From positions 6,528 through 43,382 of the forward strand of contig PGXT01000010.1 in NCBI GenBank assembly GCA_002839285.1: DNA of 36,855 nucleotides. Reading direction: 5' to 3'. The stretch comes from Spirochaetae bacterium HGW-Spirochaetae-5 (GTDB taxonomy: Bacteria > Spirochaetota > UBA4802 > UBA5550). Each line of letters opens with the position of its first letter. Within the stretch, counting starts at the first letter, position 1. Of this stretch, positions 3,532 to 35,028 are shown in pieces. A program made the position numbers and the translations under genes. The notes beneath the pieces were generated by a model. It was not told the DNA's origin. It saw nothing but the letters and a program-made list of their open reading frames with translations, and searched no databases.

Positions 3532-3687
3532 AAGAACCTCCGGACGATTGATAAAACATTAAAAGCGCTATTATTAAACAAGTTACTCTATATAATAACA
3601 AAATCAAAAAAAAACGATTAAACTAAACATTTTTGTTACATCAAATCTTCCGGCTACTTCGGCAAGCTCAGCACATCGCTTTCGGCC

Positions 3688-3708
3688 ACCCTCTTTGATA
3701 AAGAGGGT
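3688..3708. terminator. Hairpin downstream of the cNMP-SpoIIE gene
   Basis: Perfect 9-bp arms (ACCCTCTTT / AAAGAGGGT) around a 3-base loop, between the end of the phosphatase gene (3784) and the start of the Ig-like gene (3531). There is no clean T-run after it on the minus strand, so termination is only a possibility. It sits in a stretch (about 3654-3770) that also carries 'CTACTTCGGCAAGCTCAGC', a phrase repeated near 29786 and 34992, so it may be part of an interspersed repeat instead. Confidence 0.35.
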
Positions 3709-3783
3709 TTAGACTTTCAGGATTTTCCAACCACGCTCCAATAAAGAGTGATGTTGAGCAGAGCGAAACGGGGGTTTTTAAAT

Positions 3784-5113: not shown

Positions 5114-5273
5114 CCGAACTCACCCCCGGCCCCTCTCTTTGGAAAGAAAGAGAGGGGAGTTTGAGACAGAAAACCTAATGTGTTTTTTAAGGGGAATATT
5201 TCGTTTTACGAAGCCCCTCTTTTTTTCATCAAAGAGAGGGGCGCGGCATAGCCGGGGGTGAGTGTATAAAGTT
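5114..5273. repeat. Repeat A, copy 1 (three-way-junction palindrome)
   Basis: Closing stem ACTCACCCCCGGC (5118-5130) pairs perfectly with GCCGGGGGTGAGT (5251-5263). Inside are two hairpins: CCCCTCTCTTT / AAAGAGAGGGG and an imperfect CCCCTCTTTTT / CAAAGAGAGGGG, joined by an AT-rich linker. The same design recurs at 11925-12180 and 13899-14150. The right end lies 7 bases before the ATG of the DUF2157 gene, so any promoter or leader of that gene overlaps the repeat. Its outer flanks are diverged relative to copy 3. Confidence 0.9.
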
Positions 5274-8256: not shown

Positions 8257-8358
8257 ATCCCTCCCCCTCGATGGGGGAGGATAGGAGGGGGTGAAATTTC
8301 TACAAGTTCATAACTTTATCCAATCACCCTCCCCTAACCCCTCCCATCAAGGGAGGGG
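8257..8358. repeat. Repeat B, copy 1 (dumbbell palindrome)
   Basis: Two hairpins, CCTCCCCC-TCGAT-GGGGGAGG and CCCCTCCC-ATCAA-GGGAGGGG, are linked by a longer stem in which TAGGAGGGGGTGA pairs imperfectly with TCACCCTCCCCTA. The reverse complement matches the element at 9863-9963. It lies between the convergent ends of the GDYXXLXY gene and ahcY, where it could also end transcription from either side. Confidence 0.85.
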
Positions 8359-8368
8359 AATAAACATT

Positions 8369-9814
8369 CTAGTATCTGTAATGATCCGGTTTGTATGGCC
8401 CGTTGATCGGAACATCTATATATTCAGCCTGTTCTTTTGTAAGCTTTGTAAGCTTTACTCCGAGTTTTTCAAGGTGAAGTCTTGCAACTTCCTCGTCGAG
8501 TTTTTTAGGGAGAACAAACACTTTGTTCTCATGCTTTTTACCGGCAAGTTCTATCTGCGCCAGTGTCTGGTTTGTAAAGCTGTTGCTCATTACAAAGCTT
8601 GGATGTCCCGTTGCACAACCGAGGTTAACAAGACGGCCTTCGGCAAGAACGATGATCGATCTTCCCGATTCAAGAGTCCATCTGTCAACCTGCGGCTTGA
8701 TTGTAACTTTTTTACACTTCTTGTTTGTTTCAAGATAGTGCATTGCTATTTCGCTGTCAAAGTGTCCGATGTTGCAGACGATTGCGTTGTCCTTCATCTT
8801 CTCCATATGAGCGCCTGTTATAACATCCTTGTTGCCTGTTGTAGTAACAAAAATATCACCATAAGATACAGCCTTCTCCATTGTTGTAACTTCGTACCCT
8901 TCCATTGCAGCCTGAAGCGCACAGATAGGATCTATCTCTGTTACAATAACTCTTGCTCCGAACCATCTCATCGACTGAGCTGATCCCTTACCGACATCGC
9001 CGTAACCGGCAACGACAACAATTTTTCCCGCAACCATAATATCTGTCGCTCTTTTGATTCCGTCAGCAAGAGACTCACGGCATCCGTAGAGGTTGTCAAA
9101 CTTTGATTTTGTAACTGAATCGTTTACATTTATAGCAGGGAAAAGAAGCTCTCCGCTCTTCTCCATCTGGTATAGTCTATGAACACCGGTAGTAGTCTCT
9201 TCAGAAACTCCGCGGATATTCTTAACATTCTCTGTCCATCTTGTGGGGAACTTTTTAACACATGCTTTAACACGATCAAGAATTATCTGCATCTCTTTGT
9301 GCTCGGCTTTCTGATCAAGGAATTTAATATCTTTCTCTGCTTTGTGACAGTAGTGAATAAAAAGTGTAGCGTCCCCTCCGTCATCAACAAGAAGATCGGG
9401 ACCGCTTCCGTCAGGCCATGTGAGAGCCATCTCTGTACACCACCAGTACTCTTCAAGGGACTCACCCTTCCATGCGAAAACCGGAGTCTTTCCTGCTTTT
9501 GCAATCGCTGCAGCCGCATGGTCCTGTGTTGAGAAGATGTTGCACGATGCCCATCTTACATCAGCGCCAAGAGATGAAAGAGTCTCGATAAGTACAGCAG
9601 TCTGTATAGTCATGTGAAGACTCCCTGCAACTTTAAGCCCTTTCAGAGGTTTGGTCTTCCCGTATTTCTCTCTTACAGACATGAGTCCAGGCATTTCCAC
9701 TTCAGCCAGTTCAATCTCTTTTCTTCCCCACTCGGCCAGGCTTATATCTGCAACTTTATAAGGCAGTTTAGGTGCAAGATCTTTAAGCTCTTCATTCGTC
9801 ATTTTAATGCTCAT
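8369..9814 (-). CDS. ahcY: S-adenosylhomocysteine hydrolase
   Basis: Cytoplasmic NAD-dependent enzyme that splits S-adenosylhomocysteine into adenosine and homocysteine, relieving product inhibition of methyltransferases in the methyl cycle. The 481 residues match the longer bacterial form, which carries an insertion in the catalytic domain. Visible signatures: SLHMTIQTA (65-73), the VDDGGD segment (143-148), SEETTTGV (204-211), the NAD Rossmann loop [10 protein letters not shown] (270-279), NIGHFD (348-353), [14 protein letters not shown] (403-416), and the conserved C-terminal KPDHYRY whose Lys and Tyr close over NAD in the tetramer. Shine-Dalgarno AAAGGAG lies 7 bases before the ATG at 9814. 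An ArsR-methyltransferase fusion lies upstream on the same strand and probably controls it. Confidence 0.98.
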
Positions 9815-9862
9815 TTTTTTCTCCTTTTATATTATCTATCGTGATTGTCTAAAAATAAAAAA

Positions 9863-9963
9863 TCCCCCGCCCTTCATGGGAGGGGTTAGGGGAGGGTGAA
9901 TGGTTCGTGTATACGCTCCGTAAGTCCACCCCCTCCTTACCTCCCCCATAAAGGGGGAGGGAT
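9863..9963. repeat. Repeat B, copy 2 (dumbbell palindrome)
   Basis: Same plan as the copy at 8257-8358 but in reverse orientation: CCCCCGCCC-TTCAT-GGGAGGGG, then TTAGGGGAGGGTGAA facing TCCACCCCCTCCTTAC, then CTCCCCC-ATAAA-GGGGGAGG. It separates the regulator gene (ends 9984) from ahcY (starts 9814), so it lies inside any shared transcript and could attenuate or process it. The two copies flank ahcY on either side. Confidence 0.85.
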
Positions 9964-11007: not shown

Positions 11008-11107
11008 TGAGGGCACAGCGCTTCGCGCTGCGCCTGAAGTGGGGGATTACGGGGGCAGCGCCCCCGTAATCCCCCACTTCCAGCGTATGCGGAGCATACG
11101 CACCCCC
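11008..11107. repeat. Repeat C (GC-rich palindromic element)
   Basis: A near-perfect hairpin has 21-bp arms at 11036-11056 and 11060-11080 with a 3-base loop, starting from GAAGTGGGGGATTACGGGGG. It is flanked by smaller stems, AGCGCTTCGCGCT on the left and GCGTATGCGGAGCATACGC on the right. The composition contrasts sharply with the AT-rich surroundings. A collapsed relative occurs at 15425-15455 (GGGGGCACAGCGCTAGGCGC), which joins the two flanks without the central stem. It lies between the divergent SahR-like and YhhN genes. Confidence 0.8.
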
Positions 11108-11924: not shown

Positions 11925-12180
11925 TGCTAGTGTTTCGAATGGGTGATTATTAATTAAAAATTGATATATAAAGCAGCAAACTTTCCGAACTCACCCCCGC
12001 CCCCTCTCTTTGGAGAGAAAGAGAGGGGAGTTTTATAAAGAAACTTTATTGTGTATTTCATGGGAATATTTTGTTTTACGAAGCCCCTCTTTTTTTCACC
12101 AAAGAGAGGGGCGCGGCAGCAGCCGGGGGTGAGTGTAAAAAGTTTTAATAAAAATCTAAGTCATCAAAACACCTGCCCGG
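11925..12180. repeat. Repeat A, copy 2
   Basis: The left end, TGCTAGTGTTTCGAATGGGTG, matches the left terminus of copy 3 at 13899, followed by a shared AT-rich arm (ATTATTAATTAAAAA). The core spans about 11989-12134 with the same two CCCCTCT/GAGGGG hairpins and closing GGGGGTGAGT stem. The right terminus is degenerate compared with copy 3. It fills the gap between the YhhN gene and the end of the chemotaxis transducer gene. Confidence 0.88.
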
Positions 12181-13898: not shown

Positions 13899-14150
13899 TG
13901 CTAGTGCTTCGACCGGATGATTATTAATTAAAAAATGATATATAAACCGCAAACTTTCCGAACTCACCCCCAGCCCCTCTCTTTGAAAAGAAAGAGAGGG
14001 GAGTTTAAGACAAAGAATTTATTTTGTTTTTCAGAAGAATTTTTTGCTTTACGAAGCCCCTCTTTTTTTCATCAAAGAGAGGGGCGCGGCAGTAGCCGGG
14101 GGTGAGTGTGAAAAGTTTTAATGAGAAATCATCCAGTCACGGCACTAGCA
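13899..14150. mobile_element. Repeat A, copy 3: MITE-like element with terminal inverted repeats
   Basis: The best preserved copy. The left terminus TGCTAGTGCTTCGACCGGAT (13899-13918, continuing GATT) faces AATCATCCAGTCACGGCACT (14127-14146, ending AGCA at 14150); the ends TGCTAGTGC / GCACTAGCA and GGATGATT / AATCATCC are perfectly complementary. The core (13962-14107) carries the closing stem, ACTCACCCC and GGGGTGAGT, and two CCCCTCT hairpins. No open reading frame of note lies inside, and no clear target-site duplication was recognised. Non-coding palindrome, TIRs and multiple copies together fit a MITE. Confidence 0.75.
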
Positions 14151-15183: not shown

Positions 15184-15517
15184 CTAAAAAAAATATAAAT
15201 TTCAAGTCTGTCCCGACCGGATTTTTTTCGGAGAGTAATACTCTTTTTTATAAAATTAATTATATGTTATGCATAGTAATTTTTTAATTCAGCAGGGTAT
15301 GACTTCTGCAGTAAAAAAACATTTAAAATATTGTAAAAAGTAATCATTAAATTTTGTTTCTCACTGTTTTTACAATACAATAAATTGAAACAGGATTAAA
15401 CATATTAAGGTAGCAATTTATTTTTGGGGGCACAGCGCTAGGCGCATACGCACCCTCTAAAGTAATTCGTTACCTGTATTACCCTTGGAAAGAAATGTAT
15501 AAATACACTATAATTAT
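15184..15517. other. Gene-free AT-rich stretch with an inverted repeat and a repeat C relic
   Basis: No supported gene. TATTGTAAAAA (15329-15339) and TTTTTACAATA (15367-15377) form a perfect 11-bp inverted repeat with a 27-base spacer. A short GC-rich island at 15425-15455 is a shortened form of repeat C. Confidence 0.6.
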
Positions 15518-15595
15518 TCCTTAACTTTTATAAAGTAAAAAAACTCTACTATCCCCGCCGCCGAAGGCGGCGGGGATGTATAATTCTCATTTTTT
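15518..15595 (+). repeat. Repeat D, copy 1
   Basis: A compact stem CCCCGCCGCC-GAA-GGCGGCGGGG (15553-15575) lies within a longer conserved AT-rich frame that includes 'CCTTAACTTTTATAAAGTAA' on the left and 'TGTATAATTCTCATTTTTTA' on the right. The whole unit recurs at 23838-23915 and, reversed, at 32570-32645. This copy lies in the leader region of the acyl-CoA dehydrogenase gene. Confidence 0.85.
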
Positions 15596-15660
15596 AAACT
15601 AAAAATTATATTTAGGAATATTTACTGATAAAAAAAATACTATAAACAGGAGAAACAGAT

Positions 15661-23842: not shown

Positions 23843-23915
23843 CTTATTACTGCTGAAAAATGCTCTATTATCCCCGCTGCCGAAGGCGGCGGGTATATGC
23901 AACTACTCATTTTTT
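23838..23915 (+). repeat. Repeat D, copy 2
   Basis: Shares 'CTCTATTATCCCCGC', the GCCGAAGGCGGCGGG stem and 'CTACTCATTTTTTAG' with the copy at 15518-15595, with scattered changes. It begins at the stop codon of the DUF6498-like gene. The stem is slightly weaker here because of a C-to-T change in the left arm. Confidence 0.8.
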
Positions 23916-23930
23916 AGCTGTAAAATTGCT

Positions 23931-26504: not shown

Positions 26505-26690
26505 CTTTCCCGCCCCCTCTGCCCTATCGGGCATCTCCCCCATGAATGGGAGGAGAGGAGAGTCGAAACATTTTGTGGGTTTATAGAGACGCATCATGCT
26601 GCGTCTCTATAAACCCACAAAATGTTTGTATTCCCTTTCTCCCATTCATGGGGAAAGGTGCCCGATAGGGCGGATAGGGGCGCGACAGAG
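26505..26690. repeat. Long nested palindrome between convergent genes
   Basis: A perfect inner stem has 28-bp arms at 26566-26593 and 26600-26627 with a 6-base loop; its tip reads GAGACGCA-TCATGC-TGCGTCTC. Further out, CCCCATGAATGGGA (26538-26551) pairs with TCCCATTCATGGGG (26640-26653) and GCCCTATCGGGC (26521-26532) with GCCCGATAGGGC (26660-26671). It separates the reductase gene from the convergent lipoprotein gene, so it could terminate both transcripts, but its size and layering point to an interspersed element. Confidence 0.85.
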
Positions 26691-26735
26691 GGGGTGGGAC
26701 AGGTGTACCCAGGGTGTGAGGCGCTCCCCCCCTTT

Positions 26736-29587: not shown

Positions 29588-29738
29588 TATCGTTAAATGC
29601 TATAAGTACAGAGTAATCCCGATTTTTAATATGTCAAATAAATAAAATCCGTTTAAAGCTCTAAGTTAGCATCTGCTCAAAAACTGCTGGTGAAACCCCC
29701 TAACCCAGGCTGTGTCATTGAGTTAAGATATTCTAAAT

Positions 29739-29822
29739 TCTTCATACACCATTTTGCAGCACCAAATGCCCGGCCCCCTAAATCCTACTTCGACAAGCTC
29801 AGCACATCGCCCGGAGGGGGAC
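29739..29822 (+). repeat. Repeat E, copy 1
   Basis: About 84 bases including 'CATTTTGCAGCACCAAATGC' and 'ACTTCGACAAGCTCAGCACA', closely matched by 34945-35028. A complementary segment at 29884-29915 (CCCCCTCCGGAGGATTTAGG) folds back on its right half, so this copy is part of a larger inverted structure ending near 29915. The rest of 29407-30058 is AT-rich, and no gene was seen there. Confidence 0.8.
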
Positions 29823-32484: not shown

Positions 32485-32569
32485 ATAATTACCCGTTGAA
32501 TGTTTTATGAGAGGTTATAATAACTTTAATTCAGTAATTATTCCTAAGTATAATTTTTAGAATAATAAA

Positions 32570-32645
32570 GAAGAATTATATATCCACGCCCCCTTCGGCG
32601 GCGGGATAATAAAGTTTTTTTTACTTTATAAAAGTTAAAGAATAA
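32570..32645 (-). repeat. Repeat D, copy 3 (reverse orientation)
   Basis: The reverse complement matches copy 1 over 'TTTAACTTTTATAAAGTAAA', the CCGCCGCCGAAGG stem and 'GGATATATAATTCT'. The right arm of the stem has diverged. It lies in the gap 32485-32827, which holds no gene; a second small hairpin, CTCCGTC-GAG-GACGG..CGGAG, is at about 32748-32769. Confidence 0.78.
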
Positions 32646-32827
32646 ATACTGACTTTAATTTATGGGTAAGAGTCCGGGTATTGTCAAGAATAATTAAAGC
32701 AGAATGATAATGCATATGTAATTACTTATGAACTGGCAATTAAAGTACTCTCCGTCGAGGACGGCCGGAGTATATAAGTTTTTATTTTTACACTAAGATT
32801 TATATTAAGGATTTAACTCCGGTATTT

Positions 32828-34925: not shown

Positions 34926-34944
34926 ATTTACTCCTCACCCTTAT

Positions 34945-35028
34945 TCTTCATGCATCATTTTGCGGCACCAAATGCCCGGACCTCTGAATCCTTCTTCAAC
35001 AAGCTCGGCACATCGCCCGGAGGAGGGC
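34945..35028 (+). repeat. Repeat E, copy 2
   Basis: Matches 29739-29822 across its length ('GCACCAAATGCCCGG', 'CAAGCTC.GCACATCGCCCGG'). It lies in the 196-base gap between the histidine kinase gene and its broken response regulator, where genes of such pairs usually lie close together; an insertion here is plausible. Confidence 0.78.

Follow-up and report, generated by a model that had tools for sequence, protein, structure and literature searches.

The window analysed here, a stretch of 36,855 nucleotides from contig PGXT01000010.1 of Spirochaetae bacterium HGW-Spirochaetae-5, contains three copies of a hairpin-rich sequence that we call Repeat A. These copies raise the question of whether Repeat A is a miniature transposable element (MITE) moved by a transposase encoded elsewhere, a structured RNA unit, or something of both. 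We put the probability at roughly 0.85 that it spread in a burst as an IS630-type MITE with shared ends and that its stems were then kept by selection.

A preliminary description, made from the letters alone, had reported the three copies, and all of them are present (Table 1). It had also noted that copies 2 and 3 have their arms and the TGCTAGTG terminus in common and that copy 3 keeps both termini, and we found the same. Copy 3 is the complete element. Its ends are terminal inverted repeats (TIRs) of about 19 bp, flanked on both sides by TA within CTAG, and no gene is assigned in it, in agreement with the earlier remark that it has no reading frame. The length first given was about 250 bp; measured between the two TAs, the element is 242 bp long, and the outer TGC/GCA belongs to the flanks. 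Copy 2 has retained its left TIR, and copy 1 sits in a divergent promoter region.

Table 1. Coordinates in the window of the three Repeat A copies and of the parts of copy 3.
Feature	Position	Strand	Basis
TA target dinucleotide, left, CTAG context	13902..13903	.	sequence and end statistics
Repeat A copy 3, complete IS630-type MITE, 242 bp	13904..14145	+	sequence, copy alignment
Copy 3 left TIR GTGCTTCGACCGGATGATT, 19 bp	13904..13922	+	TIR pattern, end statistics
Copy 3 AT-rich left arm	13923..13961	+	copy alignment
Copy 3 core (closing stem, hairpin 1, linker, hairpin 2, small hairpin)	13962-14107		
Copy 3 closing stem, 5' side ACTCACCCCC	13962..13971	+	
Copy 3 hairpin 1 CCCCTCTCTTT...AAAGAGAGGGG	13974..14001	+	
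Copy 3 hairpin 2 GCCCCTCTTTTTTTCATCAAAGAGAGGGGC	14056..14085	+	
Copy 3 small hairpin GGCAGTAGCC; another module in its place in 3 copies elsewhere	14088..14097	+	
Copy 3 closing stem, 3' side GGGGGTGAGT	14098..14107	+	
Copy 3 right arm	between core (end 14107) and right TIR (start 14127)		
Copy 3 right TIR	14127..14145	-	
TA target dinucleotide, right	14146..14147	.	
Repeat A copy 2, with decayed right TIR and approximate right end	11930..12172	+	
Repeat A copy 1, core only, arms decayed, between divergent genes	5118..5263	+	

The number of copies is not three. The genome from which the window comes is a draft assembly (4.71 Mb in 309 contigs, 95% complete), and BLAST with copy 3 returned dozens of copies from it. 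A 38-nt core pattern had 37 matches and its reversed control none, and a TIR pattern matched 42 places against 0 for its control, although the latter count takes in a second family (family B, below) and a few elements of about 125 bp besides Repeat A. We collected 42 Repeat A copies. When these are aligned, column conservation is at background level just beyond the TIRs, and arms and TIRs can be recognised on both sides in 26 of the 42. The genome-wide figure is therefore about 42, and many copies with the same ends are what the preliminary description had expected of a MITE.

Target site. Outside the TIR, the bases at 94 distinct ends were C (0.63), T (0.74) and A (0.69), followed by G (0.86). 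Because this G matches the rest of the TIR in its constancy, we count it as part of the element and take TA, preferably within CTAG, as the target. We considered a 4-bp CTAG duplication and decided against it in favor of TA, since the outer C varies far more than the inner G. Of 36 paired elements, 33 have TA on one side or both and 10 have it on both, and departures from it are mostly TG or CA, as transitions would give. As to the constant target duplication that had been named as a check, the TA/CTAG context is there, TA on both sides is seen in fewer than a third of the pairs, and a 2-bp duplication is too short to serve as sole proof. IS630-family elements insert at TA, which is duplicated (PMC2170065), and a CTAG preference is cited in the reference list of that paper. 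Elements bounded by the same TIR directly adjoin each other head to tail at two loci, L108 (near 1500–1700) and L038 (near 1307), with one target dinucleotide between them, as if one had inserted at the other's target duplication.

The TIR is not tied to one core. Family B has Repeat A's TIR around an unrelated core and measures about 212–246 bp (mostly 212–213 or 237–246 bp), with the hairpins ACCCTCTTT...AAAGAGGGT and CCCCCTTT...AAAGGGGG. A few elements of about 125 bp in the same genome are bounded by this TIR as well, so one end sequence serves different cores. The cores are also modular, since 3 Repeat A copies have the small-hairpin side swapped for a module, CGATGTGCTGAGCCTGTCGAAGTAG, that is found again in B elements and at other places in the window. 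A third small repeat family, at 29737–29820 and 34943–35026 of the window, holds the CTACTTCGACAAGCTCAGCACATCGC module known from the Repeat A chimeras and from B elements.

We scanned 85,000 species genomes for the TIR pattern and found matches in Acidobacteria, Cyanobacteria, Myxococcales and others. By our estimate about 7–8 chance matches are expected in a scan of this size, so single matches mean little. The same TIR does bound other MITEs in Acidobacteria, Myxococcales and Cyanobacteria, at counts that clearly exceed those of the reversed control; whole-genome counts were 22 against 0 for the control in a cyanobacterial MAG (G059) and 47 against 4 in an Acidobacterium (G063). In the Acidobacterium, a 1.2-kb IS630 element (L231) has near-identical ends, TAGTTCTCAGACCG, with CTAG on both sides, and adjoins similar MITEs. 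Its transposase belongs to IS630 (NCBIfam NF033545, Pfam DDE_3) and is apparently frameshifted. In the cyanobacterial MAG, a ribosome-binding site and then an open frame (N-terminal) come after an exact TIR, and on other contigs a C-terminal frame directly precedes an exact TIR. The peptide of the latter matches annotated IS630 C-termini by tblastn; an NCBIfam scan of these 34 residues gave no match, the query being too short. An annotated IS630 of Gloeocapsopsis dulcis has CTAG at both ends, and its right end matches the Repeat A TIR at 18 of 21 positions. Three loci of the cyanobacterial MAG (L221, L222 and L225) have the same TIR around a common intergenic repeat of the GTCATTCTGA...TCAGGATGAC type.

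We believe that Repeat A was mobilised in trans by an IS630-family transposase, and the expected form of its partner is an IS630 copy with TAGTGCTTTGACCGGATGATT ends. No DDE_3 transposase was found in the draft assembly of the element's own genome (309 contigs, 95% complete) or in nine genomes of the same family, so the evidence for the partner comes from other genomes. Multi-copy insertion sequences are often lost from draft MAGs, and the cognate transposase here is likely either extinct or not assembled. The earlier suggestion of a transposase encoded elsewhere is supported by IS630 elements with matching ends in other genomes, but not by the genome's own assembly. Several other candidates were examined and rejected. 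IS701 (DDE_5) genes are not flanked by the TIR and there are none in the own assembly; rhizobial, Bradyrhizobium and Rhodococcus IS630 matches have ends unlike it; and a second IS630 of the cyanobacterial MAG, with TAACTATA ends, is a different element. A TIR scan of viral contigs found none.

Repeat A is restricted to this lineage. Allowing up to 2 mismatches, the TIR has 62 places here against 0–1 in each of the 45 other genomes among the 46 of the order, and 0 in a genome of the same genus (G001, 73% complete). That relative has retained the two genes around copy 1 as a pair, and the syntenic spacer has no element, although it differs in more than the insert and is not an exact empty site. 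Gene order around copies 2 and 3 (MCP-side synteny) is different in relatives, and no empty site was found there. Insertion polymorphism between close relatives, which had been suggested as a check, is accordingly seen as absence, including from the copy 1 spacer, but not as an exact empty site. With many copies sharing the same ends, the TA/CTAG context, the absence from relatives and IS630 ends that match elsewhere, we agree with the preliminary description that Repeat A is a MITE.

Placement was determined with gene calls from a simple codon-usage caller. All 37 placeable copies are intergenic, 15 between convergent, 16 between co-directional and 6 between divergent genes, and 13 of the 16 co-directional copies lie nearer to the 3' end of the upstream gene. 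Compared with the 24% baseline of the window, the convergent excess gives a p of about 0.02.

The copies have not decayed evenly. Identity to the consensus across the 42 copies is 99% for the closing stem and 99% for the hairpin stems (stems 98.8–99%), and falls to 89% in the linker, 82–86% in the arms and 69–73% in the TIRs. At G/C sites only, it is 98.6–98.9% in the stems, 81% in the linker and 72–73% in the arms, so that G/C-site divergence is about tenfold lower in stems than in linker and arms. The 42 copies had been found by their core, and ascertainment bias was considered as the source of this pattern. We rejected it for family B, whose check set was picked by TIR alone: the hairpin-1 stems are without mismatch in 14 of 17 elements while the loop is free to differ, and the other three are two deletion fusions of both hairpins and one element without hairpins. 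A B-like element without TIR at 3652–3783 of the window has hairpin 1 intact and hairpin 2 decayed, and stem retention is thus not absolute.

Could the stems simply be alike through repair? The copies might be neutral relics whose stems are homogenised by gene conversion or by template-switch repair within the hairpins, processes that are known for dispersed repeats and quasi-palindromes. Loops and linker vary freely, and conversion tracts between copies would erase this variation. Repair within a hairpin predicts paired changes, and none of 1435 pair cells in the copy alignment had changed on both sides. Together with the tenfold contrast at G/C sites, this makes neutral relics improbable, and purifying selection is the best account of the frozen stems. 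Near-unchanged stems beside decayed ends suggest that the hairpins are useful after insertion. Part of the stem retention and of the convergent bias could reflect tolerance of insertion, which is how the convergent bias of RUP, the Repeat Unit of Pneumococcus, has been interpreted (PMC3049150).

The Repeat A fold is far more stable than shuffles (z = -14), which would suit a functional RNA or a terminator family that owes nothing to transposition, as would the bias to convergent genes and gene 3' ends. The cloverleaf proposed earlier can form, as a three-way junction with a linker hairpin at -75 kcal/mol (RNA parameters), and its stems are strongly conserved. However, a rod that cross-pairs both CCCCTCT hairpins is more stable (-82 kcal/mol), and the copy alignment does not discriminate between the two folds. 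In the proposed covariation check no pair had changed on both sides, the stems being too conserved to inform. The window has no match to Rfam families, and no canonical U-tract follows the Repeat A hairpins, which makes a standard intrinsic terminator unlikely. A TIR common to different cores, the TA/CTAG target, the burst in one lineage and IS630 elements with the same ends all require mobility, and the placement bias is like that read as tolerance in RUP. We consider an RNA family of this kind very unlikely. Another mobile class, that of REP/BIME-type elements mobilised by RAYT (Y1 tyrosine) transposases, shares with Repeat A the hairpins, the intergenic site and CTAG near the ends. We give it still less credence, because the long linear TIRs and the TA/CTAG target fit a DDE transposase, and IS630 elements with matching ends exist.

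A more serious competitor is that the core is an independent repeat with its own spread, captured in IS630-type ends, the MITE frame being one vehicle among others. Family B shows that one TIR can hold different cores. In addition, five genomes from another family of the same order (G023, G032, G040, G044 and G045) have the same architecture without the IS630 TIR: a closing stem AACTCATCCCCCC/GGGGGTGAGTT and two hairpins, between the ends AACTCA...TGAGTT and with random flanks. Pairwise identity in these cores is 0.97 for the closing stem, 0.90 for the hairpin stems, 0.58 for the linker and 0.36 for the flanks. In view of this same contrast of stem over linker in cores that lack the TIR, the core may predate the MITE and occur more widely than it does. 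On the other side, most Repeat A copies keep recognisable arms and TIRs, which argues that the whole element was the mobile unit here, and for the bare cores of the other family we saw neither a target duplication nor a transposase. We think of an independent core as possible, at clearly less than even odds. Equally tentative is the idea that one IS630-type end sequence carries several unrelated cores built alike, from a closing stem and two pyrimidine/purine hairpins, and that such cores form a distinct class of modules, which also occur without these ends and have a selected function after insertion. If this is true, they may serve as 3'-end or transcription barriers whose stems stay frozen while the ends decay.

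Under the burst that we favor, an IS630-family transposase would have recognised the ends in trans, excised the 242-bp element and placed it at a TA, with CTAG as the preferred context; family B, with its different hairpin core, would have been mobilised through the same end sequence. This would have happened in this lineage after its split from the nearest sampled relative. With the transposase since lost, or missing from the assembly, most copies would now be immobile because of their decayed TIRs. Purifying selection would keep the hairpin stems, including the closing stem, for a structured intergenic element that lies mainly just 3' of stop codons and is probably a barrier at mRNA 3' ends or to transcription as a termination element.

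MITEs driven by IS630 are already known, and Repeat A is related in kind to RUP, its closest known counterpart, which has been proposed to be mobilised by IS630-Spn1 (PMC2229807). Both are short, non-coding and multi-copy, with an IS630-like TIR, insertion at TA and a bias to convergent genes (PMC2229807, PMC3049150). RUP, at 107 bp, shares its genome with its partner IS, whereas Repeat A is 242 bp with a partner that is not in the assembly, and it differs from RUP in its multi-hairpin core, its frozen stems and a TIR common to unrelated cores. The IS630 elements themselves (ISY100, ISMae29 and that of Gloeocapsopsis) have the same TA target, often within CTAG, but are about 1.2 kb and carry a transposase gene, while Repeat A encodes nothing. 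REP/BIME palindromes also place hairpins near gene 3' ends, as Repeat A does, but IS630-type ends here replace the REP hairpin and RAYT. The multi-hairpin plan recalls Correia/NEMIS and BOX, stable MITE-like repeats that are able to alter the RNA of neighbouring genes (PMC10969869, PMC3049150).

In the literature that we searched, we did not find a description of interchangeable cores behind one TIR, or of frozen stems with decaying ends. Decayed ends against frozen stems, in two families with the same ends, are a direct and testable sign of use by the host. Through the shared TIR, repeats from Acidobacteria, Myxococcales and Cyanobacteria are also linked to a single transposase type. Many environmental genomes are full of palindromic intergenic repeats that lack an explanation, and this link may account for some of them.

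The window has further repeats of other kinds. An inverted pair of CCCTCCCC-type hairpin repeats (8257–8361 and 9862–9963) flanks the S-adenosylhomocysteinase gene (8369–9814), and many similar copies occur in three genomes of the same family (G004, G013 and G018). A separate family with a CCGCCGCCGAAGGCGGCGG hairpin is found at 15511–15628, 23856–23924 and 32531–32648 and has many copies in another genome of that family (G010). A very stable hairpin with 26-bp arms lies between two genes at 11031–11085. A nested palindrome at 26508–26697, which scores -148 kcal/mol over 201 nt and encloses a near-perfect inverted repeat of 31 bp, separates the ribonucleotide reductase from a lipoprotein-like gene.
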